Positions 19,743-64,000 of a DNA stretch of 64,000 bases are shown piece after piece. The position numbers were made by a program, and so were the translations under genes. Position 1 is the first letter of the stretch. The number at the start of each line of letters is the position of its first letter. The notes beneath the pieces are model-generated. The model saw only the letters and a list, made by a program, of their open reading frames with translations. It had not been told where the DNA came from and ran no database searches. Source of the DNA: Butyricimonas faecihominis (GTDB taxonomy: Bacteria > Bacteroidota > Bacteroidia > Bacteroidales > Marinifilaceae); contig NZ_AP028155.1 of assembly GCF_033096445.1 (NCBI RefSeq), positions 2,485,880 through 2,549,879 of the forward strand, written 5' to 3'.

Positions 19743-19776
19743 CCAATAATATTCGACGATTATTATACCCTTCCAA

Positions 19777-20040: not shown

Positions 20041-20147
20041 ACATTCAGAGAATTATGCCTAAATTAAATTTTCCTTGAAAAAAGTGATACCTCAACTACC
20101 CCTGTTTGCCCGAGAAATTGTTATAAATATGTAAAAGGCAAGAAAAA

Positions 20148-21323: not shown

Positions 21324-21403
21324 AAAAGATGCGTTCGTGTTGGCCACACATAACGCATCGAGGTTAATATCAAAGTTCGTTATACTTTAATTATTCAAAG
21401 TTA
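21318..21403 (-). ncRNA. Predicted antisense RNA over the SusC leader, locus B
   Basis: Opposite SusC, TAACTTTG (complement of 21396-21403) overlaps the SusC start codon. The strand then reaches a strong hairpin GATGCGTT/AACGCATC (21352-21359/21328-21335) with an inner GTGT/ACAC stem, followed by TTTTTTATTTT across the FecR stop. A transcript of about 70 bases is predicted. The terminator is the strongest of the four loci. Confidence 0.6.
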
Positions 21404-24400: not shown

Positions 24401-24963
24401 CTCAGGCTGACGCAACAGTGTATATGAAATATATGGGTAAATTGAACCCAGATTTCACTTCCGGGTTGAGCATGATTTTCCGTTACAAGAACTTGTCATT
24501 GTCTTCGTCTTTCTATCTTTCTCTAGGTGGAAAGAAATTCCTAGCACCGATGTTCTCCTCGGATATGTACAACGACACACCGAACGAATATAATAATTTG
24601 CCCAAAGAGTGGGTGGGACGTTGGCGGAAACCGGGCGACGTGACGAACATTCCTTCTTTGCCGTTTAGAAATTGCGGCTCTATCGACCTGCCGAACGGCA
24701 AAGCGTACCTGTATCAGATGTATAATTACACGACGGACCGAGTCGTGAACGCTTCCTATTTGAGGTGCAATAGTATTTCGCTGTCTTACAATTTGTCCAG
24801 CGGACTGATTCGAAAGTTTGCCCAAAATGTGGGATTCTCGTTTAACGTAACCAACCCGTTCACGATCGTGAGCAGTGATTTCAAGGGTAAAGATCCGGAG
24901 GTTGCCTCAGGTTCTCAACCGTTAGCTAGGAATTATTCCTTTAGCATGAGTTTAAGTTTCTAA
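21403..24963 (+). CDS. SusC/RagA family TonB-linked importer of locus B, with STN domain
   Basis: This 1186-residue protein has a long basic N-terminus before the signal hydrophobic core (about 20-42), an STN domain (about 45-122), a carboxypeptidase-regulatory-like domain (about 130-215), the TonB-box-like MDEVVVTGY, a plug with DASATAIYGVKAANG, and a barrel ending in SFSMSLSF. It is a close paralogue of the locus E SusC, which lies in the opposite orientation. Its stop overlaps the SusD start by one base (TAATG), so the pair is translationally coupled. Confidence 0.95.
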   Translation: MKKNDTSISSKRRKWRKSLLVMNLKVMLLLYTCLYIPTSVYAQEVRLTVKMENATLEQVIWHIQQETDFVFMYGSNDVAEVKGLNVNMKNKTISEILDHCLKSTHLRYEIQNNAIVIRKQDEKDKERVVIKGMVKDTRGEPLPGVTILEKGTSVGVATDREGRFTFTTVKSDQIVLVFSFVGMKTKEIAWKGQEDLNVVLEEEAQSMDEVVVTGYQRMKKSNMAGSVSTVKAEDLVLTGTQSLEAALQGKLTGVDIQNQSGLVGTRQKVRVRGTSTLLGSQEPVWVVDGIIQTDPLPFKATDLSMASTDPDNIDMIRNFVGSSISWLNPADIKDITVLKDASATAIYGVKAANGVIVINTKRGEKGRMSINYSGSFSIGSKVTYDKLDLMNSKERVDVSREIFTRGLCGTQPLLKVGYQDLLRQYLEDKISHETFNAGVKKLEVVNTDWFDLLYENPFSYANTLSMSGGNEKITYYASFGVSNNNGTAKGNDSKSYQGSVNVTTTFWNCLDFSARVNGNVQKTRAYHSCVEPYTYASTTSRVIQAFDDEGELYYYHHNNGYKYNVLNELAESGNENTTSSLNTNVSLNWNIMKGLRYEMLLGYNYSSSHGESWATERTNYITYMRKYEFGQYNAQDEAYKASYLPHGGVLNLQETRNESYTWRNQLSYVKNFGRHLLTATLGHEISSSTYGGFTGTFYGYLPDRGKTIKNPPLNIESHEQLYPNTNYAQGSYSIIDNKTNQVSVYGALSYTFDERYVFNASLRSDASNRFGQDKNSRFLPVWSFGLRWNMGREHFFEGQNFLNECSFRLTYGYQGNASEAACSDLIARIPSDNEGGIVMGEYVLNIKSLPNPQLRWEKTATLNAGIDFAFWKNKINGSFEYYHKKTTDAIVEKTVPLENGVVSMPMNGGTLENSGWELSFSFAPIRTKNFMWSVSLNTSQNFNKVTDALESNKNWTQATTGRVNKEGYAMSSFWAFEMEGVDPKTGVPVYNLPDVDSPEAQADATVYMKYMGKLNPDFTSGLSMIFRYKNLSLSSSFYLSLGGKKFLAPMFSSDMYNDTPNEYNNLPKEWVGRWRKPGDVTNIPSLPFRNCGSIDLPNGKAYLYQMYNYTTDRVVNASYLRCNSISLSYNLSSGLIRKFAQNVGFSFNVTNPFTIVSSDFKGKDPEVASGSQPLARNYSFSMSLSF

Positions 24964-26498
24964 TGATTAAACAGATAAATCGTATGAGAAATATACTATT
25001 GTTTTTATTGTTGTTGGGGGTCGCCGGATGTAACGACTTCTTGGAAGAATCTAGTCAAGACGAGATCCGTCCGTCGACGGTGGAGGATTTGATGCAGGTA
25101 ATGACTGGCGAGGGATATCCGATGAATTTCTTGGAGTACGGTTATACCGAGCTATTGACTGACAATGTAAAATGTAACGGATCAAGTAGCGATGGCTCAA
25201 TGATCAGCACGATGGACAACATGCGCTCCCTGTTCCTTTGGGAAGACGATATGTTCGAGAAATTGACAGAAGACGGGTATAATTCTTGGAAAGCTTTGTA
25301 TCGCAAGATCATGGGCTGTAACACAATTTTAGGCTATATAGATAAAGTGAGCGGTTCTCAAGAGGTAAAGAACAATCTGTGCGGTCAAGCCTATGTGCTA
25401 CGAGCTTACTACTATTTCTTGTTGGTGAATTACTATGGAATGCCTTATAATGTTGGCGACCCCAAGACGAACTTGGGAGTACCCTTGAAATTGGTGATGG
25501 ACGTAAACGACGGTTTTATGAAGAGGAATACGGTGGCCGAGGTATATGATCAGATCGTGAAGGATTTGGAGGTTGGAATCCAATTATTAGAGGAACATCC
25601 TAAAGATATGTCTTTGTATAAAATTAATGCATTGGCTGGTGAAGCGATATTGTGTCGAGTGTACCTTTACATGGAGGATTGGGACCACGCGTTGGAATAT
25701 GCGAATAAGGTGTTAAAGAAAAAGCCGACGTTACTTTCCTTCGCGAGTATGCCGACAGGGATGATGGAACCAGGATTTATGGGTCCAACTTGGTCAGTTT
25801 ACAATTTGTCCGTAAGTGATGAGATTATTTGGATGTATGGTGATTATAAAACATTCTCATCTTGTTTTCCATCCTTGCAAGGATCAATCCCGCCTTTCTC
25901 GATTTCCGAAGACTTGCAGAATTTGTATGAATATAATGATTGGGGGTATGATACCGAGTCGGGTCAATGGTATTACAATTATGGCGATTTGCGCTTGCCC
26001 GCATATTATCAATACGTGATGGACTTTACTACAATGTTTGTAGGTTATATTTTCGGGTATAAAGGCGGACCGAGCCAGAATTATGCCAGTTTTGGTATTC
26101 GAACGGCAGAGATGTATTTGAACCGGGCAGAGGCACACATACGAAAATTCATGGAGACGGGAAACGATGAGTTCCGGGTGTTGGCATTAGCGGATCTGAA
26201 TAGATTGCGAGCCACCCGTTTTGATACGCAAAATGTAGCTTATAAAGATGTGGACTTCTCGGACAAGGATGATTTGTGGAACTTTTATGAAAAAGAACGA
26301 CGCCGCGAGTTGGCCTTTGAAGGACATCGTTGGTTTGACTTACGCCGTTTCGGGATGCCGGAGTTGACTCACATTTACTTTGTGGAGAAAGGATTGGAGG
26401 AAACGGTCACTTTACAAGAGGGTGATCCCCGCTACGTGTTGCCAATTCCACCATCAGCCATGGATAATAATACTTATTTAACACAAAATAAACGTTAA
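24963..26498 (+). CDS. RagB/SusD family lipoprotein of locus B
   Basis: This 511-residue lipoprotein has Cys23 in GVAGCNDFLEESS, the SusD start motif, then TPR-like helices (YVLRAYYYFLLVNYYGMPYN) and a C-terminal half with TAEMYLNRAEAHIRK and ERRRELAFEGHRWFDLRR. It forms the surface lid of the SusC channel. The start used overlaps the SusC stop by one base; the same overlap is kept in locus E, which supports it, although Met8 would also give a good signal peptide. It is paralogous to the locus E SusD. Confidence 0.94.
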   Translation: MIKQINRMRNILLFLLLLGVAGCNDFLEESSQDEIRPSTVEDLMQVMTGEGYPMNFLEYGYTELLTDNVKCNGSSSDGSMISTMDNMRSLFLWEDDMFEKLTEDGYNSWKALYRKIMGCNTILGYIDKVSGSQEVKNNLCGQAYVLRAYYYFLLVNYYGMPYNVGDPKTNLGVPLKLVMDVNDGFMKRNTVAEVYDQIVKDLEVGIQLLEEHPKDMSLYKINALAGEAILCRVYLYMEDWDHALEYANKVLKKKPTLLSFASMPTGMMEPGFMGPTWSVYNLSVSDEIIWMYGDYKTFSSCFPSLQGSIPPFSISEDLQNLYEYNDWGYDTESGQWYYNYGDLRLPAYYQYVMDFTTMFVGYIFGYKGGPSQNYASFGIRTAEMYLNRAEAHIRKFMETGNDEFRVLALADLNRLRATRFDTQNVAYKDVDFSDKDDLWNFYEKERRRELAFEGHRWFDLRRFGMPELTHIYFVEKGLEETVTLQEGDPRYVLPIPPSAMDNNTYLTQNKR

Positions 26499-26506
26499 GA
26501 GAAGAT

Positions 26507-27406
26507 ATGAAACGAAGAATATTTTTATTGTTATTGGTGATCTTCGCAGTTGCTTGTCACGAGGAAGAGACATTGACCCCGACGGAGACTCCGGAATTCG
26601 GATATTCTGTACCTCAAGGTAATCATGATTATGATGATAAGATCGTGGATTGGAAAGAGAGATTCAACACGTTCACTCTATATAAGTTTGAATTGAAAGA
26701 GTTGTATTGGGAAGTAGTCAAATGGATAGAGGAAACACCAATTGAGAATGGTGGTACGTATAAATCTACAGGTGGTTTTAAAGCTGCAGTTGCTGACGAG
26801 AAGTATGTGGGAAAACAACTGGAATTGATTCAAGAACAGTTCTTGCGCTTTTACTCGGACACAACATTGAAGCGTTGTTTGCCACTGAAGATTTTGCTGT
26901 GTAGCCAATTGGATCATTACAGCGTTTATGGATTATTCGATAAAACATATAATATGTACAGTGGTTATGATTGTTTGGCCTTCAACTGGGGGAATGAGAA
27001 GGTCTTGACGCTGACTGACGCACAAAAAAATGCGATTCGAGTGGAAACGAATGATGGATTCTTGAGACGTTTGATGTACAAAGCCAAGATAACAGTGGAT
27101 CCCGCTTTCTTCGAAGTGTCGAATTATAACCAATTGACTTCCACAAACGCATACGAGCAAGGCTGTTTGTTTTATAACACCTCGAAAGATACCGATGCGC
27201 TATTCTTTATTACTGCCATTATTTCGACTCCGTATGCAAATTTGATGGCGGAGGATACGACGCCGAATTCGTACAATGGGATTCTAAATCCGAAAAAGGA
27301 TAAGAACGGTTTGATTCGAAAAAAGTATGATTTGCTTGTAAATTGCCTTAAAGAAAATTATAATATTGATTTGCAGGCAATAGGTAATGCAACATTAGTA
27401 AATTAA
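26507..27406 (+). CDS. Metallohydrolase-like lipoprotein lacking the HExxH motif, locus B
   Basis: This 299-residue lipoprotein (Cys17 in FAVAC) resembles the SusCD-associated putative zinc metallopeptidase family in layout: an N-terminal LYKFELKELYW segment, a central part ending in DPAFFE, and a C-terminal KKYDLLVNCLKENYNIDL helix. Where the family's HExxH helix should be, about 13 residues before the Pro of DPAFF, it has LRRLM (about 186-190), and no HExxH occurs anywhere. It is therefore probably a non-catalytic binding protein. It lies 8 bases after SusD and is paralogous to 58900-59799. The family call rests on pattern and context. Confidence 0.65.
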   Translation: MKRRIFLLLLVIFAVACHEEETLTPTETPEFGYSVPQGNHDYDDKIVDWKERFNTFTLYKFELKELYWEVVKWIEETPIENGGTYKSTGGFKAAVADEKYVGKQLELIQEQFLRFYSDTTLKRCLPLKILLCSQLDHYSVYGLFDKTYNMYSGYDCLAFNWGNEKVLTLTDAQKNAIRVETNDGFLRRLMYKAKITVDPAFFEVSNYNQLTSTNAYEQGCLFYNTSKDTDALFFITAIISTPYANLMAEDTTPNSYNGILNPKKDKNGLIRKKYDLLVNCLKENYNIDLQAIGNATLVN

Positions 27407-27421
27407 AGAGGAAGAAAGAAT

Positions 27422-28693
27422 ATGTATTGCAAATTATTTATAGTATTGGCAATGTCGTTTACTTCAGTAGTGGGATTTGCGCAGTCGAAGAACACCGCCA
27501 CTGAGGTGTTAGATTACCGTGAAATGGACGGGAAAATGATTGTGGATGTGATGGTAAACGGGCGATTCCTCCCGTTCGCACTCGATCTAGCTGGGCATAC
27601 GACCATTTTGTCGAAATATGTGGACGAGGCAAACCCCGAAAAGCATATAGCACATCGACTATTGGATTCCACTTTCTTGTACAAAGATATGTCCTTGCCC
27701 CGATTGGAGACTTTCGGGTGGGTAACATTAGGAAATGTTGCCTACGCAAATAATCTCACCGCTTGCGTGTTGGAAGAAGCTCCTTATTTTCAAAAACTTG
27801 GCATAGCCGGAGTACTTGGCGGCGAAATGTTTTTAGGAAAAGTACTGACGATCGACACCCAACGCAAGAAATTGACCGTATCAACACCGACCGCCCCCCC
27901 TTACATGCAAGAGGATTATCAGATGAAGATGGAGCTAGTAGCCGGTACGACTGTCGCTTGTGAGATAATATTGGATGAAGAAGTTTTTCCTGTAGTTTTA
28001 GACACTTGGAACGAGGGATTCGTTTCCATGACCCCGGAAGATTTCGCCAAGGTAAACGGCAAAAAAGGTGGCAAGGCATCCATTACGAAGGGATATCTGC
28101 CGACGGAAAAGGCTACCGCCACCAAGGTCGTTGCTAAAGGTCGTTTCGTGAATGAGGAGTTGGGTGAAGTGGTCGTGGCCAAGAACGAAAATCTGCCCCG
28201 TTCCATACTGGGATCCGACATTCTCAGAAAAGGAATCGTCACCATTGATTACAAAAAGCAGAAACTTTATTTCCAACCATTTGATTTGGTGAAGGTGCAA
28301 AATGACGGGATGGACAATGTCGTGACTGAAATTGTGCCCGGCAAATTGAACTCGATTAACCGAAAGTATTTTTTGGAGCATCTTTACGATTATCGTAAAG
28401 ATAAAGAGTTCATATTTAAAGGAAATAAACCGATAGTTATCGATTTCTGGGCAACGTGGTGCAAACCTTGTATGCAATTGATGCCCGAGTTGGAAAAAAT
28501 GGCCGAGAGGTACAAAGACCAAGTGGTGTTCATGAAAATAGACGTGGACAAGGAAAAAGAACTTTGTGCGGTGTTCAATGTAAAACTGATTCCAATGTTA
28601 CTTTTAGTACCAGTAAGTGGAAAACCAACGGTACTAGAAGGATACCAACCAGAGAAATGTGAGGAAATCATTCAAGAACAGTTGTTGAAATAA
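27422..28693 (+). CDS. Retropepsin-like protein fused to a thioredoxin domain, locus B
   Basis: This 423-residue periplasmic protein has a signal peptide (to about 20), two retropepsin-like lobes and a C-terminal thioredoxin domain (about 335-423) with WATWCKPC (Cys347 and Cys350). The first catalytic-loop position reads DLAGHT (Asp55) and the second DTWNEG (Asp194), so the usual DTG is altered both times: Gly becomes Ala or Trp. The same changes occur in its paralogue at 52451-53728. The Asp residues remain but the loop geometry is probably not that of an active protease. It ends the locus B operon. A function in binding and reducing peptides is inference. Confidence 0.85.
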   Translation: MYCKLFIVLAMSFTSVVGFAQSKNTATEVLDYREMDGKMIVDVMVNGRFLPFALDLAGHTTILSKYVDEANPEKHIAHRLLDSTFLYKDMSLPRLETFGWVTLGNVAYANNLTACVLEEAPYFQKLGIAGVLGGEMFLGKVLTIDTQRKKLTVSTPTAPPYMQEDYQMKMELVAGTTVACEIILDEEVFPVVLDTWNEGFVSMTPEDFAKVNGKKGGKASITKGYLPTEKATATKVVAKGRFVNEELGEVVVAKNENLPRSILGSDILRKGIVTIDYKKQKLYFQPFDLVKVQNDGMDNVVTEIVPGKLNSINRKYFLEHLYDYRKDKEFIFKGNKPIVIDFWATWCKPCMQLMPELEKMAERYKDQVVFMKIDVDKEKELCAVFNVKLIPMLLLVPVSGKPTVLEGYQPEKCEEIIQEQLLK

Positions 28694-43813: not shown

Positions 43814-43818
43814 CTATT

Positions 43819-44769: not shown

Positions 44770-44784
44770 CTTTATTTATTGTTT

Positions 44785-46362: not shown

Positions 46363-46374
46363 AACGACCTATTT

Positions 46375-52450: not shown

Positions 52451-53728
52451 TTACTTTTTCAGTAACTGTTCCTTGATGATTTGCTCGTGTTTTTCTGGTT
52501 GCGCACCCACATCAATAATAGGCTTTCCACCAACAGGAATAAAAAATAAGGTAGGCAAAGCGACCACGTTAAACATCGTGCAAAGTTCTTTTTCCTTGTC
52601 TGCATTCACTTTCAAGAACAAAACCTGATCCTTGTACTTTTCTGCCATCTTTTCCAATTCCGGGATCAGACGCATACAAGGCCCACACCATGTCGCCCAA
52701 AAATCAATGACCACGGGTTTATCTCCCTTGAACACGAACTCTTTATCTTTACGATAATCGTAAATATGCTCCAGAAAATATTCACGGGTAATCGGGTTTA
52801 ATTTTCCGGGGACAATTTGCGTTGCAATATCTTCAATCACGTCATCCTTCACTTCCGCCAAATCAAAAGACTGGAAATAAATCTTCTGTTTCTGGTAATC
52901 GATAGAGATAATTCCTCTCTTTAAAATTTCAGTTCCTAACACAGAACGTGCCAAATTCTTATTCTCCGTCACCACAACATCAGTTAAATGCTCCTTCACA
53001 AAATCACAAGTACCAACAATTTTAGTTTCAGAAGTTTTTTCCGTTTCCTTATATCCATTCGTGATGAAAGCCTCTCCACCCCTATTCCCAGAAAGTTTGG
53101 CATAATCATCCGCTTTCATGGCAATCATCCCGTCATACCAAGTATCAAACAATACCGGATAAGCAACTCCATCAAGTATCACTTGGCAAACTACCGGTAA
53201 TCCCGGTAGGGGATTCGCCAAATCTGCACGATGGTCCAGTTTCATATACGAGGGCCGATAAGGTTTAGAAGTTGTTATTTTCTTACGTTGTGCATCAATC
53301 GTCAAGACCACGTTCTGGAACAACGTACTTCCTATAATTCCTGCCACCCCCAATTTCCGTAAATAAGGTTCGTCTTCTAGAACGAAAGCTGAAATACCAT
53401 TACCGAACACGTTGTTTCCAAAAGCGATCGAATTAATGGACACGATGCCAGTTGTCGCCACCTGTTTGTACAAAAAATTGGTATAGGGTAAACGACCTGC
53501 CACATTCGTGTCAATATGGAATTTTTCCACGTATTCCGGTAATATTGCCGTATGTCCAGCCAAATCCAACACAAACGGAGCAACTTCCCCGTTCACGATC
53601 ACATCCAGAATGATTTTCCCATCTACCTCCCGGTAATCTTTTACCTCTGTAGCCGAGTTCTTTGTTTGAGCAAACGTAATCATCGAAATGAACATCAACC
53701 CCAAGAATATAATTAATTTATGATTCAT
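52451..53728 (-). CDS. Retropepsin-like protein fused to a thioredoxin domain, locus E
   Basis: This 425-residue protein has a signal peptide (to about 20), two retropepsin-like lobes and a C-terminal thioredoxin domain (about 337-425) with WATWCGPC (Cys348 and Cys351) and ALPTLFF. The catalytic-loop positions read DLAGHT (Asp55) and DTWYDG (Asp195) rather than DTG. The same altered motifs in the locus B paralogue show that the change is conserved, not recent decay. It is the last gene of locus E, five bases after a PDZ retropepsin-like gene that keeps both DTG motifs. The truncated copy at 19777-20040 is its near relative. Confidence 0.88.
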   Translation of the reverse strand: MNHKLIIFLGLMFISMITFAQTKNSATEVKDYREVDGKIILDVIVNGEVAPFVLDLAGHTAILPEYVEKFHIDTNVAGRLPYTNFLYKQVATTGIVSINSIAFGNNVFGNGISAFVLEDEPYLRKLGVAGIIGSTLFQNVVLTIDAQRKKITTSKPYRPSYMKLDHRADLANPLPGLPVVCQVILDGVAYPVLFDTWYDGMIAMKADDYAKLSGNRGGEAFITNGYKETEKTSETKIVGTCDFVKEHLTDVVVTENKNLARSVLGTEILKRGIISIDYQKQKIYFQSFDLAEVKDDVIEDIATQIVPGKLNPITREYFLEHIYDYRKDKEFVFKGDKPVVIDFWATWCGPCMRLIPELEKMAEKYKDQVLFLKVNADKEKELCTMFNVVALPTLFFIPVGGKPIIDVGAQPEKHEQIIKEQLLKK

Positions 53729-53733
53729 ATCTT

Positions 53734-54903
53734 CTAAAATTTAGTAATTTTCACCTTTTTCTCTTTCCCGTCTTTCAAAACAACGATCTCCGTCGAATTT
53801 CCCTCTACAGCATTCAACAACGCATCCACCTCTAATTGACTTTGTCCCAATTCAGATAAATCTTTACCATTAATCCGAATCACTTGATCACCCAACGCGA
53901 CCTCATCTTTCAAACTATCCCACACTAACGTAACCTCAAAATGTCCTTTCACGGGCAAAATACCCACATTCCACAATTCTTGCTTTCCCTGTCCATCTTC
54001 AACACGATCCTCGTAAGGGAAAAAATAAAAACGCCCGCGAATGTAATCAATCACCACCTTACCGTATTTCAGCATATCTACCCCCATAATAGAACTTCCG
54101 CTCCGAGTAGTAACACTTTCAAAATTCGTGAACTTTTTTCCCAAGAAATTAACCTCGTCAAAACGTACCTTGACGATCTCCTTCGCATTGTCCATATTCA
54201 GCCCTCCGATACCCAGTGCATTTATCCCAAATGCCTTCTCCAATGAATGAGTACTCTTCATTTCTTTCAATGCCTCGTAATCATTGTAAAACAAATGCAA
54301 TAAACCGTCTGCCCCCGTGTCAAACATTACAGGCTTTTTTACTCCTCCAAAATCAACGTCCACAAACGGTTGAGGGACACCGCCAACCATAGGCACGCCC
54401 TCCGTAATTTTCAAACCTGAAGGACGATAAGGGTAATTTATAATCATAATTTGCTCACAGGCATCAAAAGTAAGTACTGCCTGCCCGAAAGCATCACTAC
54501 CTAATAACCCAACTACTCCCAATTCTTTAAAAAAGCCATTCTGAGGAAATATCAGACTTTTTATTTCAGCTAATTTATAATTCGGACTCAGCTGTACATT
54601 GGACAAAATAGCTTCCTGATAAGAAACACGATTACCGTTCATGTCACTCACGCCAAGGTCCCCTCCTGCCGCAACAGCTTTCATTTCAACGGCCGCTTCC
54701 CGTATCGTCCCGGTCGTTCCTCCCGTATCCACGATATACTTCACCGTCACGCCATTTACCGTAACAGGAATAATAATTTTATCGTGGATAAACTCATAAT
54801 GAATCGTGTCACATATTCGTCGAGAAACCGCCTGTTGAGCAACTCCCCGCACGAATAATGACATCATCATCACGCACACGAATAATATTTTTAACTTTAC
54901 CAT
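53734..54903 (-). CDS. Retropepsin-like aspartic protease with PDZ domain (first copy)
   Basis: This 389-residue protein has a signal peptide (to about 23), two retropepsin-like lobes with intact catalytic loops VDTGGTT (Asp59) and FDTGADG (Asp195), and a C-terminal PDZ domain (about 315-389, with LGDQVIRINGKDLSEL). The two-lobe layout in one chain would give an active site without dimerisation. It lies three bases after its paralogue and five before the thioredoxin fusion. It may trim imported or surface-bound peptides; the catalytic call is from motifs only. Confidence 0.87.
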   Translation of the reverse strand: MVKLKILFVCVMMMSLFVRGVAQQAVSRRICDTIHYEFIHDKIIIPVTVNGVTVKYIVDTGGTTGTIREAAVEMKAVAAGGDLGVSDMNGNRVSYQEAILSNVQLSPNYKLAEIKSLIFPQNGFFKELGVVGLLGSDAFGQAVLTFDACEQIMIINYPYRPSGLKITEGVPMVGGVPQPFVDVDFGGVKKPVMFDTGADGLLHLFYNDYEALKEMKSTHSLEKAFGINALGIGGLNMDNAKEIVKVRFDEVNFLGKKFTNFESVTTRSGSSIMGVDMLKYGKVVIDYIRGRFYFFPYEDRVEDGQGKQELWNVGILPVKGHFEVTLVWDSLKDEVALGDQVIRINGKDLSELGQSQLEVDALLNAVEGNSTEIVVLKDGKEKKVKITKF

Positions 54904-54906
54904 AAA

Positions 54907-56040
54907 TTACTTCTTTTCGTACACGATAGTCTTCTCGCCATTTTTGGTCTGAACAGTCAATTTAACCTTTTTCTTCGCCTTCAATTCCGGGATTCCATTA
55001 ATGATACTCTCGCAAAAATCATACGTACTAACCGGCTGACCATCGATTTTAGTCACCTTATCCCCAACTTCTACTTCTCCTTTCATGGCATCCCACACGG
55101 TTGCAACCACCAAGACTCCATCTTTCACACGTAAGGCCACGTTATAGTGCTTGCTCTTCAAATCATTCTCCGCCTTGTAAGCCTCGAAGTAGAAACGAGA
55201 ACGGGCATAATCCAATGTCACTTTACCATAATCCAATAATTTCACTCCCAACAACGTCAACGGTGGCGTGGCTGTCTCCGAACTTACATTCAAAAAACGA
55301 GTACCGCCTATAGAAAGTTCCGGGAATTGTACCCGGTAAAAAGAAGCCGCAGATGACTCCCCGGCAACCCCGATTGACGCCCCCCCGAATCCTTCGGCCA
55401 ATACCGTAAAAGCGCCTACAGATTTCAAAGTCTCAAAATCCGTACTTTTTAAAGAGAAGAAACCGGGAAATCCCGTATCAAACAAACAGTTGATACTATT
55501 TCCTCTTCCGGCTTGCAAAGCAACCACCGGCATCCCCTTTTTCACAAAACCAAGCATTTTTCTTAAAGAGATCGTCGGAGCCTGTTCTCCATTCGAAATG
55601 GTGATCGTCTTCGCTTTACCATCAAGCTCCACGATCATTCCTTTCAGTATATCGCTACCGATCAACCCGTCCGTTTGAAAACAAGCAAACGGAGAAGGAG
55701 TTGGTAATTTAATGGCCGGAACATGCATGAAATGATACATTTTATCCGGGAAAAGCAAACTTTCAATTTCTACACGAGGATAGGCAAGTTTTTTACTATT
55801 CACATCCGTCACCACCAAAGAATCTGTTAATGGCAATCCCAACTCCTCACAAATCTCCCCAGACAACGCAGTCTGCCCGCCCGTGTCAAAAATAAACGAA
55901 CGGGGAGTTCCGTTCATGATCATCTCCACGATCATCTTTCCCCCCACCAAACGGTAAGGTAACACAGTTTTACGTGGCTGGGCAATCCCGGGGATTGCCA
56001 GCACACACAATAACAATGAAATCAATATTCTCTGTTTCAT
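54907..56040 (-). CDS. Retropepsin-like aspartic protease with PDZ domain (second copy)
   Basis: This 377-residue protein has a signal peptide (to about 20, GIAQ), two retropepsin-like lobes with FDTGGQT (Asp52) and FDTGFPG (Asp188), and a C-terminal PDZ domain (about 300-377, with VGDKVTKIDGQPVSTY). Both catalytic Asp loops look intact. It is paralogous to the next gene and probably arose by tandem duplication. It follows the subtilisin-like gene by 19 bases. Substrates are unknown. Confidence 0.87.
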   Translation of the reverse strand: MKQRILISLLLCVLAIPGIAQPRKTVLPYRLVGGKMIVEMIMNGTPRSFIFDTGGQTALSGEICEELGLPLTDSLVVTDVNSKKLAYPRVEIESLLFPDKMYHFMHVPAIKLPTPSPFACFQTDGLIGSDILKGMIVELDGKAKTITISNGEQAPTISLRKMLGFVKKGMPVVALQAGRGNSINCLFDTGFPGFFSLKSTDFETLKSVGAFTVLAEGFGGASIGVAGESSAASFYRVQFPELSIGGTRFLNVSSETATPPLTLLGVKLLDYGKVTLDYARSRFYFEAYKAENDLKSKHYNVALRVKDGVLVVATVWDAMKGEVEVGDKVTKIDGQPVSTYDFCESIINGIPELKAKKKVKLTVQTKNGEKTIVYEKK

Positions 56041-56059
56041 CTTGATTCCTCCATCAAAA

Positions 56060-57763
56060 TTATTTCGTTAACTTATCTGCCGCCATGATAGCTTGATAAG
56101 CATTTAAAATTCCCCCGGATAAACACAGATCTTCAAAAAGGAATAGATCTTGTGTCTGTTTATTATTCACAATAATCCCTTTCTCCACTTCTACGCCCTT
56201 GCGAGAGGTTACTGTTTTCAATAAGATATTACGTATTTGGGAACCAGTCAAGTTCGGGTAATAAGCTTTAACTAAAGCTGCAACTCCGGCAACCGTAGCC
56301 GACGATAACCCCGCACCACTTCCTGTTTGATAAGTATCTCCCATATATGAAGAATAGATGTCCATACCCGGAGCGAACAAATCCAACTCTTTTGCCCCGT
56401 AATTTGAATTCAAAGAAGGATTTCCATTTTTATCCGATGAAGCCACAACCATTAAATTAGTCAATTCTTTCTCTCCATCCATCCAGCGATTCGGGAAAAA
56501 AGTTTGTTTTGACAAGTCTCGTGATAATTCCCAAACCGGAACAATTACCAATACACCTTTACTTTCGGCATAACGCAACGCCTCGGCCACCCATTGTCCT
56601 TGTCCTTCAGGATATAACGTATTTTGCTGAGGCAACACAATTACATCCGCCTTATGATCAACAGCATAACGAATGGCCAATGCCATATCCTTCATATAAG
56701 GCTCCCCGCGGGAAGCACTCACTCGTAAACACATGATTTCCGCCTGATCCATAATTCCATTCCCTCCTAAATCATTATCTCTTTTACCACCGATCACCCC
56801 GGCTTGCATGGTACCCATTCCGGCTTCAGATGTCAACAGGACATTATTTCCATATTTGTTATCATTTATATCCATATAATCATCCCCGACAATATCAGCA
56901 CGTCCATCACTCCCATATCCTTTTAGTGTTCTTTCGTAATCCTTTTGGGATTCCGCCACTATTTTATTAACAAAATTCTTATACACGAAATCCAAACTAG
57001 GAGTTTTGTAAATATTAAAGCCCATGGCAATCATGGTAAAAGCCCGATCACGCAAAGGATCAGCTGGAGCTTTAGGATCATAACAAGTTGCAAATTCCGT
57101 TGCCGTAAGCTCTTTTCCCGGGTATTTTTTCTCCAGTTCCTCTTTAAATATCTGACCATATTCCTGATAAGTATAGGCGGCTTGCGACCCCAAGTAATAT
57201 CTACCAATTTCCGATTCCGGAACCACGTGGCTCATAAAATAAGTATATTCCGCTAAATTTTCAGGAGGAGCAACTTTTGTTCTTTTTCCATCTATAATTT
57301 TAAAATACTCACCCTCTCTACCTTGAAGATAATCACCATATTTTTCTTTCAAACGTAAGAATTCACGATCCCCTTCCTGCATCAATTTTTCCATCACTTG
57401 CCCGTCCTTACCTCCTAAAAAGTTCCAACCATTAATGTCGTCCACCAACCCGTTTTTATCATCATCTTTCCCGTTCGCCTTCTCTTTCTTGTTAAACCAA
57501 ATCGCTTGTTTCAAATCTTCGTGTTCCACATCCAATCCTGTTCCGATTAAAGCGACTACCGGCCTTTTCTTTACTTTTTTACCTTTCAAAAACTCATAAG
57601 CTTTATTCACTTCTGCCCCATATACTCCATCCTTATCAAAAGAACAGTTATACCAATCCAAATCCGACTGTTTCTTAGCCGTTTGATCATCCTGATTGAC
57701 AAGTTGTGCATTTAATATACCCACATACAAGCACATTAAAAATAAAAGAGAATATCTTTTCAT
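56060..57763 (-). CDS. Subtilisin-like (S8) protein without catalytic residues
   Basis: This 567-residue protein has a signal peptide (to about 19) and follows a Bacteroidota S8 subfamily with a long insert between the Asp and His motifs (about 85-305, starting with NGKDDDKNGLVDDINGWNF). The usual VIDTGID reads LIGTGLD (Gly74 for Asp), HGTH reads MGTM (Met316 for His), the oxyanion AAGNDG reads VPVWEL (around Trp411), and GTSMAAP reads GAGLSSA (Gly485 for Ser). The fold elements around them are kept, including VAGVAALVKAYYP. It is thus a likely pseudoprotease. It starts 127 bases after the TlpA gene. Confidence 0.88.
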   Translation of the reverse strand: MKRYSLLFLMCLYVGILNAQLVNQDDQTAKKQSDLDWYNCSFDKDGVYGAEVNKAYEFLKGKKVKKRPVVALIGTGLDVEHEDLKQAIWFNKKEKANGKDDDKNGLVDDINGWNFLGGKDGQVMEKLMQEGDREFLRLKEKYGDYLQGREGEYFKIIDGKRTKVAPPENLAEYTYFMSHVVPESEIGRYYLGSQAAYTYQEYGQIFKEELEKKYPGKELTATEFATCYDPKAPADPLRDRAFTMIAMGFNIYKTPSLDFVYKNFVNKIVAESQKDYERTLKGYGSDGRADIVGDDYMDINDNKYGNNVLLTSEAGMGTMQAGVIGGKRDNDLGGNGIMDQAEIMCLRVSASRGEPYMKDMALAIRYAVDHKADVIVLPQQNTLYPEGQGQWVAEALRYAESKGVLVIVPVWELSRDLSKQTFFPNRWMDGEKELTNLMVVASSDKNGNPSLNSNYGAKELDLFAPGMDIYSSYMGDTYQTGSGAGLSSATVAGVAALVKAYYPNLTGSQIRNILLKTVTSRKGVEVEKGIIVNNKQTQDLFLFEDLCLSGGILNAYQAIMAADKLTK

Positions 57764-57890
57764 TACTACAGAATTTATTATATTATACGATACAAAACTT
57801 CAAACATCCAAAAAATCATCTAGTCGATTTTTTAATTCACCATTTTGCAGTAAATCAAAAAACGCTAACTCAAAAAATATAAAATCAAAA

Positions 57891-58892
57891 TCAGTTTCCT
57901 CTTGCTCTCTCTATCGCCTCCCGGACTTTTTCTCCTCGCAAATCCCGATCAACAATCCGCCCTTCTTTATCGATTAAAACGATAAAAGGAATCGTGTAAA
58001 AGCCGTATGCTTTCTGTATCATGTTAGGTTCGTTTCCAGATGTAAATCCTTCCTTGTCCCACAACATGATCCAAGGTAATTTTTCTTCCTCAAGCATTTT
58101 CTTCCAGTCTTTTTCCCGTCTATCTAAAGATATACTGATAAATACAAGATCATCACCTTTCAATTCATCATAAATCGGCCTAAGATATTTCATCTCATAC
58201 CTGCAAGACCCACACCAAGAAGCCCAAAAATCAACAAGTACAAATTTACCCCGAAAATCACTCAACTTAACCATTTTTCCCTCCGGATCCACAAATTCAA
58301 AATTATACGCCTGTGCCCCCACGGCAAAGTGGCTTAAACTATCCACCCGGTGTGCCAACCAACGGGCTGAAGTTGTATTCCGATCTGCCTCAGGAACAAG
58401 CTCTAATAACATTTTGTTAGACTCCCATTGCGTCATATCTGCAATATAAGCTAAAGCACTATACATATTTCCCCGCAATTTTCCCTTTACTTCAGCATTC
58501 ACGACCCGTTTCTTTGCAGATAATTCCGTCGGAATCCATCGCGATAACTCCAAGAAATCGTCAATTCCTGTAAAAGCCAACGAACTACTCTCTGGAGCTT
58601 TTTCATTATAAAATCCTTTCACCGTTACATCCCCATTCGTCAAATAAATAGGCTGTTTCGTGCTACCAATAGTTAAGATATATACATCCGGTACTATTTT
58701 TTCCGGTCCTTTTCGAAATTCTTTTCCGTTCTCCACGGAAATGGAGAATATCTCGTTTCCATCAATAGAAGTCACTTTAACTTCAGTGGGAGACAATAGC
58801 CGTAATTTACCAGATAATGTTAAGCCTTTTTGAGCTTTCCCGGGGATAATCCCCCCGAGAAAGACTAAAAATATAAATAGAATTTTCAACAT
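57891..58892 (-). CDS. TlpA-family thiol-disulfide protein of locus E
   Basis: This 333-residue protein has a signal peptide (to about 20, GKAQ), a DUF4369-like N-terminal domain (about 22-110), a short helical linker and a C-terminal redoxin domain (about 190-333) with WASWCGSC (Cys227 and Cys230) and TIPFIVLID. The CGSC dipeptide differs from the CGPC of most paralogues and may shift the redox potential. It lies seven bases after the metallohydrolase-like gene. It has no counterpart in locus B. Confidence 0.9.
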   Translation of the reverse strand: MLKILFIFLVFLGGIIPGKAQKGLTLSGKLRLLSPTEVKVTSIDGNEIFSISVENGKEFRKGPEKIVPDVYILTIGSTKQPIYLTNGDVTVKGFYNEKAPESSSLAFTGIDDFLELSRWIPTELSAKKRVVNAEVKGKLRGNMYSALAYIADMTQWESNKMLLELVPEADRNTTSARWLAHRVDSLSHFAVGAQAYNFEFVDPEGKMVKLSDFRGKFVLVDFWASWCGSCRYEMKYLRPIYDELKGDDLVFISISLDRREKDWKKMLEEEKLPWIMLWDKEGFTSGNEPNMIQKAYGFYTIPFIVLIDKEGRIVDRDLRGEKVREAIERARGN

Positions 58893-58899
58893 ATCTTTT

Positions 58900-59799
58900 T
58901 TATTTCAACTCAGCATCTCCTATCGCCTGCAAATCGATCCCATAATTCTCCTTGAAACTATTTACAAGAATCTCATATTTTTTCCGAATTAAACCGTTCA
59001 CATCCTTCACCGGATTTAAAATACCCACATACGTATTCGTACTCGTATTTTCTGCAATCAAATCCTCATACGGATTCGAAATGATAGCTTCAATAAAATA
59101 TTTAGCATCGTCCGCTTGTTTCGTTCCAGCTTTAATAAAACCACGAGAGTACATGTCAGTAGCCGTAATTCTCTCATAATTCATTCCTTCGTAGAATGCC
59201 GGATCCACGATCACTTTGGCTTTATCCAACAAACGTGTAAGAAAAACATTATTTACCTCTTTTCTAAAACTATTCTTTTGCACATCAGTGAAGGTCAACA
59301 CACTTTCGTTTCCCCAGTTAAACGCTAAATAATCATAACCGTTATACACATTGAATGTCTTACTCAAGTCTCCATAAGCAGAATATTCGTCTAACTTACT
59401 ACACAATAATATTTTCAACGGCAAACAACGATTCAAGGTTGTATCTGGATAAAAGTTCAAAAACAACGATTCAATCAAATCCAACTGTTCCCCCACATAC
59501 TGTTCATCAGCAACTTCACCTCTCAACCCCTTCGTGAAAGGGTAGTAACTACCTTCCGGTTCCGGTTTTGACTCATACCAACCATTCACTTGCCAATACA
59601 ACTCTTTCATATTAAATTTATACAAAATGAATGTATTGCATCTCTCTTTCCAATCCACGATACGATCATCGTAATCATGTTCTCCTTGCGGCACGAAATA
59701 CCCGAACTCAGGAGTTTCCGTCGGGGTCAACTGATCATCATCACTACAAGCGACCGCCAAAGCCATCAATAATAATAAATAAATTATATGCTGTTTCAT
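58900..59799 (-). CDS. Metallohydrolase-like lipoprotein lacking the HExxH motif, locus E
   Basis: This 299-residue lipoprotein (Cys18 in LAVAC) is the paralogue of the locus B protein, of equal length, with shared LTPTETPEFGY, HDYDDRIVDWKER and a KKYEILVNSFKENYGIDLQAIG ending. At the position of the family's HExxH it reads LTRLL, about 13 residues before the Pro of DPAFYE, and no HExxH occurs anywhere. It is probably a non-catalytic surface or periplasmic binding protein. It is ten bases after SusD. Confidence 0.65.
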   Translation of the reverse strand: MKQHIIYLLLLMALAVACSDDDQLTPTETPEFGYFVPQGEHDYDDRIVDWKERCNTFILYKFNMKELYWQVNGWYESKPEPEGSYYPFTKGLRGEVADEQYVGEQLDLIESLFLNFYPDTTLNRCLPLKILLCSKLDEYSAYGDLSKTFNVYNGYDYLAFNWGNESVLTFTDVQKNSFRKEVNNVFLTRLLDKAKVIVDPAFYEGMNYERITATDMYSRGFIKAGTKQADDAKYFIEAIISNPYEDLIAENTSTNTYVGILNPVKDVNGLIRKKYEILVNSFKENYGIDLQAIGDAELK

Positions 59800-59809
59800 A
59801 ACTTTATAC

Positions 59810-61333
59810 TTAACGTTTGTTCTGTTCTAAATAAGGATTACGATCCAAAGCTACCTGCGGAATCGGCAACACGTAACGAGGGTCACCCTCGCGCAAAGTC
59901 GTAATTGTTTCCGCCTCACCCGTTTTTACAAAATAAACATGTGATAATTCAGGCATACCGTAACGGCGTAGATCGAACCAACGATGTCCTTCAAAACTCA
60001 GCTCTCTCCGACGTTCCTCTTGATAGAACTGCCACAACTCATCCGCATCCTTAATATCAACTTCTTCGTAAGCCGTAGTCCGCGTATCATAACGATTTTC
60101 ACGCAATTTATTCAAATCAGCCAAAGCCAAAGTTCGGAAATTTCCCTCTCCGGTTTCCATGAATTTACGTACATACACTTCCGCTCTGTTTAAATACAAC
60201 TCCGCAGTCCGGATTCCGTGGGCTGCATACGATAAACTCCGTCCTCCTTTATACCCGTATTCGGGGAAAGCAACATATTCAAATGGGGACCAATTCAAAT
60301 ACATATTCCAATAATAATATGCATATACCCGTAAATCTCCATGATTATTCGCATCCGTAGCTGAAAAATCATACAAGTCCATTAATTCATCAGAAGGAGT
60401 AAAAGGATTCATTGCTGAATAGGCCGACGGGTACAAACTGGAGAACATCCCCGATCCCCCATACATCCAAATAATCTCGTCACTCGTTGACGAATTATAA
60501 ATACTCCACACACTATTTCCTTGGTACTGCATAGCATCTGTCGGCATACTAGCTAAAGAAGTTAAAGTCGACTTTTCCTCCAATACCATATTAGCATATT
60601 TCAAAGTATTATCCAAATCCTCCATGTAAAGATACACTCTACATAAAATAGACTTTCCAGCTAAAGCATGGATTTTATATAGAGACATCTCCACCGGATT
60701 TTCTTCTAACAATTGAATTCCCTTTTCCAGATCTTTCACGATCTGCTCGTACACTTCTGCCACCGAATTCCGGGCCATAAAACCATCATGTACAGCCATT
60801 TCCAACTTCAACGGCACACCTAGATTTTCAGCAGGATTTCCAAAATTATAGGGCAACGCATAGTAGTTCACCAACAAGAAATAGTAATAAGCACGTAACA
60901 CGTATGCCTGCCCCCGCAAGTTATCTTTTGCCGTTTGTTCCCCTGTTACTTTATCAATATAATCCAAAATCGTGTTACATCCCATAATCTTATTGTAACA
61001 CTTTTTCCATGAGTTATAACCATCAGCCTTTAATATCTCGAACATATCATCTTCCCAGAGAAAGAGAGAGCGAATTTCTTCCACTCGACTTACCATAGTC
61101 TCATCAGTTCCCGCACCATTACATTGCACATCATCGGAAAGCAAATCTGTATAAGGATAGTCCAACATTCCCATGGGGTATCCCTCTCCAACCATCACCT
61201 GCATCAAATCATCCACTGTTGATGGACGTACTTCGTCCTTACTGGACTCTTCCAAGAAATCGCCGCATCCGGCAAATCCCAATAATAATAAAAATAATAG
61301 TATATTTCTCATACGATTTATTAGTCTAATCAT
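59810..61333 (-). CDS. RagB/SusD family lipoprotein of locus E
   Basis: This 507-residue lipoprotein (Cys23 in GFAGCGDFLEESS) is the paralogue of the locus B SusD, with the same YVLRAYYYFLLVNYYALPYN helix and a C-terminal ERRRELSFEGHRWFDLRR. Its start overlaps the SusC stop by one base, as in locus B. It is the surface lid of the locus E transporter. The protease-fold and thioredoxin genes that follow suggest a peptide-type ligand, by inference. Confidence 0.94.
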   Translation of the reverse strand: MIRLINRMRNILLFLLLLGFAGCGDFLEESSKDEVRPSTVDDLMQVMVGEGYPMGMLDYPYTDLLSDDVQCNGAGTDETMVSRVEEIRSLFLWEDDMFEILKADGYNSWKKCYNKIMGCNTILDYIDKVTGEQTAKDNLRGQAYVLRAYYYFLLVNYYALPYNFGNPAENLGVPLKLEMAVHDGFMARNSVAEVYEQIVKDLEKGIQLLEENPVEMSLYKIHALAGKSILCRVYLYMEDLDNTLKYANMVLEEKSTLTSLASMPTDAMQYQGNSVWSIYNSSTSDEIIWMYGGSGMFSSLYPSAYSAMNPFTPSDELMDLYDFSATDANNHGDLRVYAYYYWNMYLNWSPFEYVAFPEYGYKGGRSLSYAAHGIRTAELYLNRAEVYVRKFMETGEGNFRTLALADLNKLRENRYDTRTTAYEEVDIKDADELWQFYQEERRRELSFEGHRWFDLRRYGMPELSHVYFVKTGEAETITTLREGDPRYVLPIPQVALDRNPYLEQNKR

Positions 61334-64000
61334 TAGAAACTCAAGTTTACACTAAATGAATAGTTCCGTGTTATCGGTTGCGATCCGGTTGCCACCTCGG
61401 GGTCTCTGCCCTTAAACTCACTGCTCACGATTATGAAAGGATTGGACACATTGAACGAGAAGCTCATATTTTGGGCAAACTTCTTGATCCATCCCTTGGA
61501 CAAGTTGTAGGACAATGAAATATTGTTACAACGCAAGTAAGAAGCATTTACCACCCGAATATCTGCGTAATTATATACTTTCGCAAAATATTCACTCGAA
61601 TTCGGTAAAGTTATCCCCTTTTCCCCTTTCTGAGGTAAAGATGGTATATTCGTATAATTTTCATCCCCCGGTTTACGCCAACGTTTCACCAAATCTTTTG
61701 GCAAATTATTATATTCGTTCGGAGTATCATTATACATCTCTGCAGCATACATTGGTGCTAAAAATTTCTTCCCACCCACGGAAAGATAGAACGACGAGGA
61801 AAGTGACAGATCCTTGAAACGAAAACCCATACTCAAACCGGAAGTAAAGTCGGGATCCAATTTACCCATGTGTTTCATATATATCGTGGCATCTGTTTTA
61901 GCATCAGGAGTATCGACTCCCGGTAAGTTGAAACGAGGCGTACCATCCTCTGGATTCAACCCGTCAAATTCAAATGCCCAAAAACTGGACACAGCATATC
62001 CTTCTTTGTTCACGTTTCCAGTCGTGGCTTGGGTCCAGTTCTTGTTGGACTCTAATTTACTCGTCACCTTATTATAGTTCTTGGAAGTATTCAACCCTAA
62101 TGTCCAAATGAAATTATTCGTACGCACTGGAGCGAAACTAAAACTCAATTCCCATCCATAATTCTCCAACGAACCACCATTCATTGGCATACTCGTCACT
62201 CCATTTTCCATTCCCACCTCCTTGTTAATAACTGCATCTGTAGTCTTTTTGTAATAATACTCAAATGATCCGTTAATCTTATTTTTCCAAAACACAAAAT
62301 CAACCCCAGCATTCAATGTTGCCGTTTTTTCCCATTTTAATTTCGGATTAGGCAAGCTCTTAATATTCAATGCATATTCACCCATAACAATACCTCCCTC
62401 ATTATCGCCTGCAATTCTAGCGATCAAATCGGGAGAGGCAGCCTCATTAGCATTCCCTTGGTATCCATAAGTCAATCGGAAACTACACTCGTTCAAGAAA
62501 TCTTGTCCTTCTAAGAAATGTTCCCGTCCCATATTCCAACGCAACCCGAACGACCACACCGGTAAAAAGCGAGCGCTTTTATCTTGCCCGAAACGATTGG
62601 ATGCATCTGATCGTATACTAGCGTTAAATACATAACGCTCATCGAAAGTGTACGTAAATGCACCATAAAAAGACAATTTATTCGCCTTGTTATTAATAAT
62701 CGACTTCGAAGGCTGTGCGTAAGTTGTATTCGCTGAAAGATATCCATTATTTTCGGTATTCAATGGGGGATTTTTAATCGTATTTCCACGTTCCGGTAAA
62801 TATCCCCAAAAAGTACCAGTAAAACCGTCATATTTAGAGCTACTGGCCTCCTGACCTACCGTGGCTGTCAACAAGTGTCTACCAAAATTTTTCACGTATG
62901 ATAACTGGTTTCTCCAAGTATAATTCTCATTACGCGAATCCTGCATATTCAATTCACCTCCATGGGGCAACCCACTCTTTTTATATTCTGCATCATTCGC
63001 ACCATATTGCCCGAATTCGTAGCCACGTTTAGCCGTAATATAATAAGTTCTTTCTGTTGCCCAAGACTGTCCGTGAGAGGAAGTGTAGCTATAACCAATT
63101 GACATCTCATATTTCAAACCACGTAAAATATCCAAATTCAAACTAATATTCGCATTCAATGAATTGGAAGTGTTCTCATTTCCGGTGCCTGCCAACTCAT
63201 TTAATATATTGTATCTAAACTTATTAGCATTCTTGTAATAATATAAATCTCCATTATCATCAAAAGCCGAAATCACACGACTCGTAGTAGAAGCATAAGA
63301 ATAGGGTTGCACGCTACCATGAAATCCCTTTGTCTTAGCAACACTCCCGGCCACTTTAGCAGAAAAACGCAAACGGTCCCAAAATATCGTTGTCACGTTC
63401 ACACTTCCCTGATAATTCTTAGAATCATTTCCCTTAGCCGTACCATTATTATTTGACATACCAAAAGAGGCATAATACGTAGTCTTATCACTACCTCCGG
63501 ACACGCTGATACTATTAGAATAAGAGAATGGATTTTCAAACAACAGATCGAACCAGTCCGTGTTAACTGTCTCTAATCTCTTTACACTAGCATTAAATTG
63601 GTCATAGGAAATCTTATCCTGCAAATATTGCTGTAACACTTCTTGATACCCTACATCCTGCAACACGTTACCGTTAACCAAACCTCTCTCGTATATTTCC
63701 CGGGAAACATCCACGCGCTCTTTAGAGTTCATCAAATTCATCTTGTCGTAAGTTACCTTAGACCCTATTGAAAAACTGCCAGAATAGTTAATAGACATAC
63801 GTCCTTTTTCTCCTCTTTTTGTGTTGATCACGATAACCCCATTAGCCGCTTTCACGCCATAAATCGCTGTAGCAGAAGCATCTTTCAATACAGTAACATC
63901 TTTAATATCTGAAGGGTTTAACCAAGAGATTGCACTACCCACGAAATTACGGATCATATCAATATTGTCCGGATTCGTGTTAGACATAGACAAATCGGTT
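61333..64000 (-). CDS. SusC/RagA family TonB-linked importer of locus E (partial, 5' end outside the window)
   Basis: The frame stays open to the window edge, so the start is not present; the TTG at 63991-63993 is an internal Leu codon (residues TDLSMSNTNPD match TDLSMASTDPD of the locus B SusC). The visible 888 residues cover the end of the plug (KDASATAIYGVKAANG) and the whole barrel, ending in SFSVNLSF. It is a close paralogue of the locus B SusC in the opposite orientation. The STN domain and any FecR or sigma genes would lie beyond 64000. Confidence 0.94.
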   Translation of the reverse strand, partial: TDLSMSNTNPDNIDMIRNFVGSAISWLNPSDIKDVTVLKDASATAIYGVKAANGVIVINTKRGEKGRMSINYSGSFSIGSKVTYDKMNLMNSKERVDVSREIYERGLVNGNVLQDVGYQEVLQQYLQDKISYDQFNASVKRLETVNTDWFDLLFENPFSYSNSISVSGGSDKTTYYASFGMSNNNGTAKGNDSKNYQGSVNVTTIFWDRLRFSAKVAGSVAKTKGFHGSVQPYSYASTTSRVISAFDDNGDLYYYKNANKFRYNILNELAGTGNENTSNSLNANISLNLDILRGLKYEMSIGYSYTSSHGQSWATERTYYITAKRGYEFGQYGANDAEYKKSGLPHGGELNMQDSRNENYTWRNQLSYVKNFGRHLLTATVGQEASSSKYDGFTGTFWGYLPERGNTIKNPPLNTENNGYLSANTTYAQPSKSIINNKANKLSFYGAFTYTFDERYVFNASIRSDASNRFGQDKSARFLPVWSFGLRWNMGREHFLEGQDFLNECSFRLTYGYQGNANEAASPDLIARIAGDNEGGIVMGEYALNIKSLPNPKLKWEKTATLNAGVDFVFWKNKINGSFEYYYKKTTDAVINKEVGMENGVTSMPMNGGSLENYGWELSFSFAPVRTNNFIWTLGLNTSKNYNKVTSKLESNKNWTQATTGNVNKEGYAVSSFWAFEFDGLNPEDGTPRFNLPGVDTPDAKTDATIYMKHMGKLDPDFTSGLSMGFRFKDLSLSSSFYLSVGGKKFLAPMYAAEMYNDTPNEYNNLPKDLVKRWRKPGDENYTNIPSLPQKGEKGITLPNSSEYFAKVYNYADIRVVNASYLRCNNISLSYNLSKGWIKKFAQNMSFSFNVSNPFIIVSSEFKGRDPEVATGSQPITRNYSFSVNLSF

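Follow-up and report, generated by a model that had tools for sequence, protein, structure and literature searches.

The window analysed here is the whole stretch of 64,000 nucleotides from Butyricimonas faecihominis at G000:C1:2485880-2549879 (genome 4.85 Mb), and the element in question is locus E, a single minus-strand gene run inside it at 52451-64000. An importer of the SusCD type is encoded there together with homologues of proteases and thioredoxins, in the order FecI, FecR, SusC, SusD, Mx1-like lipoprotein, TlpA, homologue of the S8 subtilases, PDZ-retropepsins A and B, and a retropepsin-thioredoxin fusion. A preliminary description had named the eight genes from SusC to the fusion, all of which are present on the minus strand in the order given, and had proposed for this SusCD importer set a possible role in the capture, reduction and limited trimming of disulfide-bonded peptides before or during import. 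The parts are as follows.

L003:9141-9695, beyond the window end and upstream of SusC: FecI, an extracytoplasmic function (ECF) sigma factor
L003:7889-9052, beyond the window end and upstream of SusC: FecR
61333..64000, minus strand: SusC, a TonB-dependent barrel, cut by the window end (TIGR04056, 511.4 bits against a cut-off of 368.25)
59810..61333, minus strand: SusD lid lipoprotein, 507 amino acids (PF14322, 106.9 bits, and PF07980, 70.6 bits, both above cut-off)
58900..59799, minus strand: Mx1/TIGR04549-like lipoprotein, 299 amino acids, lacking HExxH, with an acidic stretch behind the lipid Cys (CSDDD)
57891..58892, minus strand: TlpA-like thioredoxin-fold protein, 333 amino acids, CxxC intact, export signal read by eye
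56060..57763, minus strand: subtilase (S8) homologue, 567 amino acids, without Asp, His, Ser and oxyanion Asn (now Glu)
54907..56040, minus strand: PDZ-retropepsin A, 377 amino acids, two lobes, each with DTG
53734..54903, minus strand: PDZ-retropepsin B, 389 amino acids, two lobes, each with DTG
52451..53728, minus strand: retropepsin-like protein (loops DLAG and DTW) fused to a thioredoxin (WCGPC), 425 amino acids

The whole SusC open reading frame (ORF; L003:4213-7842, 1209 amino acids) carries STN, CarboxypepD, plug and barrel domains, and the TIGR04056, PF14322 and PF07980 matches, all above cut-off, place locus E among the SusCD importers. No carbohydrate-active family was detected among the eight locus E proteins scanned, in agreement with the preliminary description, so that the glycan-active enzyme expected of a polysaccharide utilisation locus is missing from them, and no iron-related family was detected among the same eight. 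Ordinary export signals, read by eye, are observed at the start of S8, TlpA, the PDZ-retropepsins and the fusion; reduction and trimming would therefore follow import and not precede it. Counts of promoter-like sites (38 against a shuffle mean of 32.4) and terminator-like sites (13 against 8.3) were judged uninformative.

The gene set recurs in other genomes, as the preliminary description required, with 22 copies of the cassette in 12 genomes (family genomes plus two genomes of other families), and because of these related cassettes the run is more than chance. In the family search, covering 56 genomes with S8 and the fusion as separate queries, S8 gave a match at E <= 1e-30 in 13 genomes and the fusion a match in 11. 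A fusion match lies 1.2-4.1 kb (start to start) from each of the 20 nearly full-length S8 matches of at least 45% identity; a further S8 match in G020 (47%) is cut by the contig end. S8 adjoins 20 of the 24 fusion match rows, the other four being locus B (a shorter relative in the window, described below), the remnant next to it, a C-terminal fragment (G011:C1) and a stop-containing copy (G015). A chance neighbourhood was rejected, since this independent fusion search puts 20 of 24 rows beside S8. At order level (393 genomes) S8 matches four genomes at E <= 1e-85 and the fusion matches the same four at E <= 1e-15, namely the own genome, one more genome of the family (G045) and two from other families, and at phylum level (395 genomes) the fusion matches the own genome only. 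A pattern scan of one genome per species (84,980 species) returned 12 loci, all in Butyricimonas or Odoribacter.

The order FecI-FecR-SusC-SusD-Mx1-TlpA-S8-PDZ-fusion holds in unforced maps, absent members aside, the single exception being L077, in which a truncated PDZ-retropepsin is placed after the fusion. A scripted check kept the order in 21/21 cassettes, a count that is partly built in as genes were picked partly by side (genes on the strand of S8, with the fusion and PDZ picked downstream and the rest upstream, a rule also used in the co-variation test below). Among 21 cassettes whole genes were found in 19 for SusC, SusD and Mx1 alike and in 18 for both TlpA and PDZ-retropepsin A, with PDZ-retropepsin B found in 9 loci. 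Single broken genes occur in some copies (SusC in L063, SusD in L074), and ORFs are inserted in L072 (G009:C1:3372200-3391200), where two transposase-like ORFs, recognised by eye at 6589-9125, occupy the Mx1 slot; L073 in G006 is a close version of L072 with Mx1 whole. Another copy, L076 (G045:C10:63400-82400), is a cassette without SusC and SusD and adjoins opposite-strand genes that by eye resemble mobilisation or recombinase genes.

Catalytic loss in the S8 homologue is conserved. The window protein matches PF00082 with 92.3 bits against a cut-off of 21.8, the model of a natural S8-fusion chain (L075, discussed below) matches solved subtilisins, and in the window protein G stands in place of Asp, M of His, E of the oxyanion Asn and G of Ser. 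Across the cassettes Asp is replaced in 22/22 (by Gly in 20) and His in 22/22, Ser is lost in 21/22, and the oxyanion Asn is changed to Glu in 17 and to Asp in 5, so that neither the Asp nor the His of the Asp-His-Ser triad of an S8 enzyme is retained in any of the 22 cassette members. In L072 and L073, which likewise lack Asp and His, the catalytic Ser is replaced by Cys. All four residues are retained in seven of the eight non-cassette S8 relatives aligned; the exception, L082, lacks His, Ser and the oxyanion Asn and sits outside the dead clade. This clade, consisting of the 22 dead S8s and L084, which is cut by a contig end and has lost Asp and His, forms one side of a 100/100 branch in a tree of 31 rows, rooted at the midpoint and with several long branches. 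The ratio of nonsynonymous to synonymous substitution (dN/dS) is 0.039-0.114 in six of nine gene pairs, the remaining three being saturated, and the three least saturated pairs give 0.059, 0.114 and 0.075 at synonymous divergences (dS) of 0.57, 0.67 and 0.32, respectively. The dead S8 is held by purifying selection and is not decaying. A Cys at place 40 (window S8 numbering) is found in 19/22 dead S8s and is absent from the 8 non-cassette S8s aligned. In L075 (G019), S8 and the fusion are joined as one 966-amino-acid ORF without an internal signal peptide, a Pro-containing linker replacing the signal peptide of the fusion; a mere lost stop is therefore unlikely, and this natural joined protein suggests that S8 and the fusion work together.

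For the Mx1-like lipoprotein, described earlier as a metallohydrolase without HExxH, the missing motif and the fold stand and the sequence scores fall under the curated cut-offs (TIGR04549, 17.0 against 75 bits; PF15890, 13.8 against 25.6 bits). Its predicted model (mean predicted local distance difference test score, pLDDT, 85.2; predicted template-modelling score, pTM, 0.80) best matches PDB entry 4l7a, a putative zinc metallopeptidase of Bacteroides caccae, at E 1.6e-5 and probability 1.00 with a template-modelling score of only 0.47. HExxH is absent from 22/22 ORFs in the Mx1 slot (three assigned by place, the L072 remnant included), and the zinc motif and a Glu-rich EDFAE segment are absent in 14/14 Mx1 proteins aligned beside three HEFTH/HEFAH members, a family comparison that rests on L113, L119 and L120, with L114, L115, L121 and L122 left out of 8 members. 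L117 is a further family or near-family member without the zinc motif. The protein resembles the TIGR04549/PF15890 lipoproteins, whose family name is import-associated, in its predicted fold and its place next to SusCD, and differs from them in the absent zinc motif and in both scores. At least two acidic residues, counted by eye, occupy the four places after the lipid Cys in 20/20 Mx1 rows; acidic residues at this position follow the rule for a surface export signal, and the stretch is compatible with surface export. The lipoprotein probably only binds. Elsewhere in the own genome weak Mx1-like matches are detected at G000:C1:49933-50253, 828545-828688 and 3097832-3098494, and only G000:C1:194751-195503 scores above the TIGR04549 cut-off.

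Both loops of the PDZ-retropepsins read D[T/S]G in 26/26 aligned rows (24 from cassettes; L077, L111 and L112 outside the alignment), and the description of the two window copies as intact is borne out, with DTG in each lobe; their PDZ matches fall short of the Pfam cut-off (20.3 and 14.1 bits against 27). The fusion is homologous to them by profile comparison (hhalign E 9.1e-37). Its first lobe reads D-[L/I/M]-x-G and its second D[T/S]W, with CxxC in the thioredoxin, in 23/23 proteins (21 cassettes, locus B and L075); D[T/S]G is found in 0/23 and the catalytic Asp is retained in both lobes of all 23. Thus the loops of the fusion retropepsin are altered, and on this sequence ground the domain is likely inactive. 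TlpA keeps CxxC in 18/18. The proposal that three protease folds look inactivated is supported by the lost S8 triad, the absence of HExxH from the Mx1 protein and the altered loops of the fusion, the inactivity of the last being likely and unproven.

Co-variation among the genes was assessed from pairwise identities across 21 cassettes (L075 left out) with 500 label permutations; for each gene pair only loci with the whole gene were used, 15 to 21 in common, the split SusC of L063 and SusD of L074 being dropped. TlpA, S8, PDZ-retropepsin A and the fusion have mutual rho values of 0.87-0.95, and SusC, SusD and Mx1 of 0.83-0.89, with 0/500 permutations as high in either block. Between the blocks rho is −0.01 to 0.27 over 12 gene pairs, and of these only TlpA-SusC (0.27, 5/500) and TlpA-Mx1 (0.19, 14/500) had fewer than 25 of the 500 permutations as high. 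FecI and FecR correlate with the periplasmic block at 0.44-0.61 compared with 0.06-0.11 for Mx1 and SusD and 0.18-0.19 for whole SusC (17 and 14 of 500). Saturation is unlikely to be behind the missing front-back correlation because the front-end genes correlate strongly among themselves.

That the STN domain goes with FecR was predicted before SusC was split, and this was borne out when SusC was divided, in 19 cassettes, by cuts within about 16 residues of the Pfam domains STN (89-138), CarboxypepD (151-233) and plug (241-376). SusC residues 1-135 follow FecI, FecR, TlpA, S8 and the fusion (0.48-0.56) and not Mx1 or SusD (−0.09 and −0.04), the plug and the two parts of the barrel go with Mx1 and SusD (0.82-0.93) but not with S8 (0.06-0.13), and the CarboxypepD part is intermediate (0.33-0.45 against 0.26-0.27). 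The pattern was unchanged for 11 re-tested pairs after removal of a syntenic group or of one of each near-duplicate pair. Individual operons serve as examples. L059 and L064, one operon seen in two species, have identities of 73% for FecI, 66% for FecR, 77% for TlpA, 83% for S8, 68 and 64% for the PDZ-retropepsins, 73% for the fusion and 69, 54 and 75% for three downstream genes, but of only 49% for SusC, 36% for SusD and 27% for Mx1; in the control pair L064/L066, with S8 also at 83%, the latter three are 81, 66 and 60%. Between L059 and L065 dS is uneven, at 0.017 for Mx1, 0.026 for SusD, 0.065 for the fusion, 0.076 for PDZ-retropepsin B, 0.135 for PDZ-retropepsin A, 0.238 for TlpA and 0.571 for S8, which speaks for recent recombination between species, lowest in dS at the importer but reaching beyond it.

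The operon is a mosaic of a periplasmic block, a block of SusC plug-barrel, SusD and Mx1, and an STN domain that goes with FecI and FecR. An importer-specific unit is not supported by these results, as the periplasmic genes hardly co-vary with the SusC plug-barrel, SusD and Mx1, the importer type differs between species within one orthologous operon (L059/L064), and SusCD with a thioredoxin-fold gene is an ordinary combination here, present in all five SusCD loci of the window. It is tempting to regard the import operons of gut Bacteroidales as three separately inherited units joined inside SusC, in which the sensor end and the pseudoprotease module stay while the front end is swapped; the back end would serve generally to receive peptides without cutting them, to reduce them and to pass chains on to the intact PDZ-retropepsins. 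In this full form the proposal is doubtful.

We favour, with a probability of roughly 0.4, the reading of locus E as one copy of a three-part import operon, controlled by a sigma and an anti-sigma factor, which handles peptides with pseudoproteases. Sensing would fall to the first part, FecI and FecR with the STN domain at the SusC N-terminus. The second would be an exchangeable outer-membrane front end, comprising the SusC plug and barrel, SusD and the lipoprotein of metallopeptidase fold without its zinc motif, and the third a conserved periplasmic back end of TlpA, the dead subtilase, one or two intact PDZ-retropepsins and the altered retropepsin-thioredoxin. The importer would deliver peptides or glycopeptides, the pseudo-subtilase and altered retropepsin, possibly in a complex, would hold the chain uncut, TlpA and the fused thioredoxin may maintain thiols of the cargo, or of the module's own proteins, in the reduced state, and the intact PDZ-retropepsins would do the cutting. 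We infer a peptide cargo because of the kinship of SusC with RagA and because related loci contain a DPP-IV/S9 peptidase (L079) and GH85 (L082), a peptide-like context; disulfide-bonded peptides would be a putative form of this cargo.

Several observations weigh against this reading. L075 has Ser at the catalytic Ser place, and the AlphaFold model of its chain (13 rows) has a mean pLDDT of 73.8 and a pTM of 0.54, leaving contact between the domains unsupported. TlpA was not found in 3/21 cassettes (L072, L073 and L111), nor in L075, and no PDZ-retropepsin was found in L068 or L075. Locus B retains the fusion without S8, TlpA or PDZ-retropepsins, and with at least one thioredoxin-fold gene in each of the five window SusCD loci the presence of such a gene says little. 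Finally, the lost co-variation between front and back could mean that the back end is unrelated to the imported cargo.

Among the other explanations, an ordinary importer of glycans or glycoconjugates, with the pseudoproteases as mere binding proteins and the thioredoxins as general helpers, is unlikely. SusCD systems mostly import glycans, and the GH85 gene of L082 fits such a cargo; the lack of carbohydrate-active families in locus E and the intact retropepsins in most cassettes do not. Slightly less probable again, yet a real rival, is a role of the periplasmic block in the operon's own signalling, through control of the redox state or cleavage of FecR or of the SusC N-terminal domain. PDZ proteases cut other anti-sigma factors, FecI, FecR and the STN domain track the periplasmic block and not Mx1 or SusD, and the extra Cys at place 40 of the dead S8s is in keeping with such a role. 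However, the same correlation results if both flanks are simply kept while the middle is exchanged, L060 agrees with the window in importer type and S8 (76%) but not in the STN domain (30-38% over the first three 40-amino-acid steps), and locus B has FecR without S8, TlpA or PDZ.

Capture of iron or haem from host or dietary proteins is very unlikely. It draws on Riemerella anatipestifer, in which a run of SusC, RagB and a 'substrate import-associated zinc metallohydrolase' has values of 3.06-3.81 in the iron-limitation table of PMC5429918; the lack of iron-related families among the eight locus E proteins scanned speaks against it. Equally hard to credit is an altered retropepsin that still cuts as an aspartic protease in spite of its unusual loop. 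Both Asp residues persist in all fusions, but Trp replaces Gly after D[T/S] in 23/23 and Leu, Ile or Met follows the Asp of loop 1, and both altered places matter in the retropepsin family. Decay into pseudogenes, suggested by the catalytic residues lost in several genes and the single broken genes of some copies, is contradicted and was rejected on the dN/dS of the dead S8s (0.04-0.11) and their single clade, the same replacements being kept throughout (D[T/S]W in 23/23, oxyanion Glu/Asp in 22/22).

Each part of the peptide-handling operon proposed here is of a known kind, and both exchange of SusCD (RagAB alleles, the shufflon) and dead subtilases (CspC) are already known. RagAB of Porphyromonas gingivalis is likewise a SusC/SusD-type importer with allelic importer genes, said to take up peptides, and the RagA N-terminus is highly conserved; no dead subtilase, retropepsin or thioredoxin fusion appears in the portion of PMC11817032 from which these statements come. 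The nearest solved relatives of the window SusC are 8ypu/8ypt, then RagA, and 8ypu/8ypt are also nearest to SusD; no publication was found for these entries from which a substrate might be read. CspC-type pseudoproteases of Clostridioides difficile resemble the window S8 as triad-less S8 folds kept for a non-cutting role, but CspC acts in spore germination and not in an import operon (PMC6636752, in part), and the window S8 scores only 43.0 bits on NF040808, far under its cut-off of 675. In Bacteroides fragilis a shufflon brings alternative SusCD-like pairs behind one promoter, around the starts of susC homologues; the exchange of pairs is shared with the cassette, whereas the shufflon, as far as the available text of PMC5729914 describes it, is DNA inversion within one genome and the cassette reflects divergence between paralogues and species with its joint inside SusC. 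Neither the cassette nor the SusC joint was found described in the paper literature searched, most subscription journals lying outside it.

It is unusual for two or three protease folds of a single operon to stay non-cutting in several genera, with identical replacements, and this conservation indicates selection for handling without catalysis. The blocks provide a direct and testable split, in which the front end would decide the substrate and the back end would process it. As SusC can itself be mosaic, regulation predicted from its barrel, or substrate predicted from its neighbours, can mislead.

Related loci depart from the cassette in composition. L082 (G010:C10:284300-303300) is a related SusCD-Mx1-TlpA-S8-PDZ locus with the GH85 gene and, following, an unassigned protein of 493 amino acids, and L078 (G047:C13) is a cousin operon with Mx1, a TlpA-like protein, S8 with intact triad and a PDZ-retropepsin but no fusion, its subtilase appearing catalytic from its residues. 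Within the window locus E has a relative in locus B, a short version lacking TlpA, S8 and PDZ-retropepsins, which lies beside a remnant.

20148..28693, plus strand: locus B, with FecR, SusC, SusD, an Mx1-like gene and a second fusion of retropepsin and thioredoxin, from the same family as that of locus E
19776..20046, minus strand: remnant, the thioredoxin end of a further fusion copy, its protein 84% identical to the locus E fusion

Loci B and E share 87% identity in the SusC plug, 75% in the barrel, 67% in SusD and 63% in Mx1, but only 35% in both STN and FecR. The sole sigma gene close to locus B sits on the opposite strand (28853-29428). Five SusCD loci touch the window, at 6391-16734, 20148-28693, 29856-41283, 41527-52273 and 52451-64000, and DUF4843 and PKD-like lipoproteins are encoded in two of the five.

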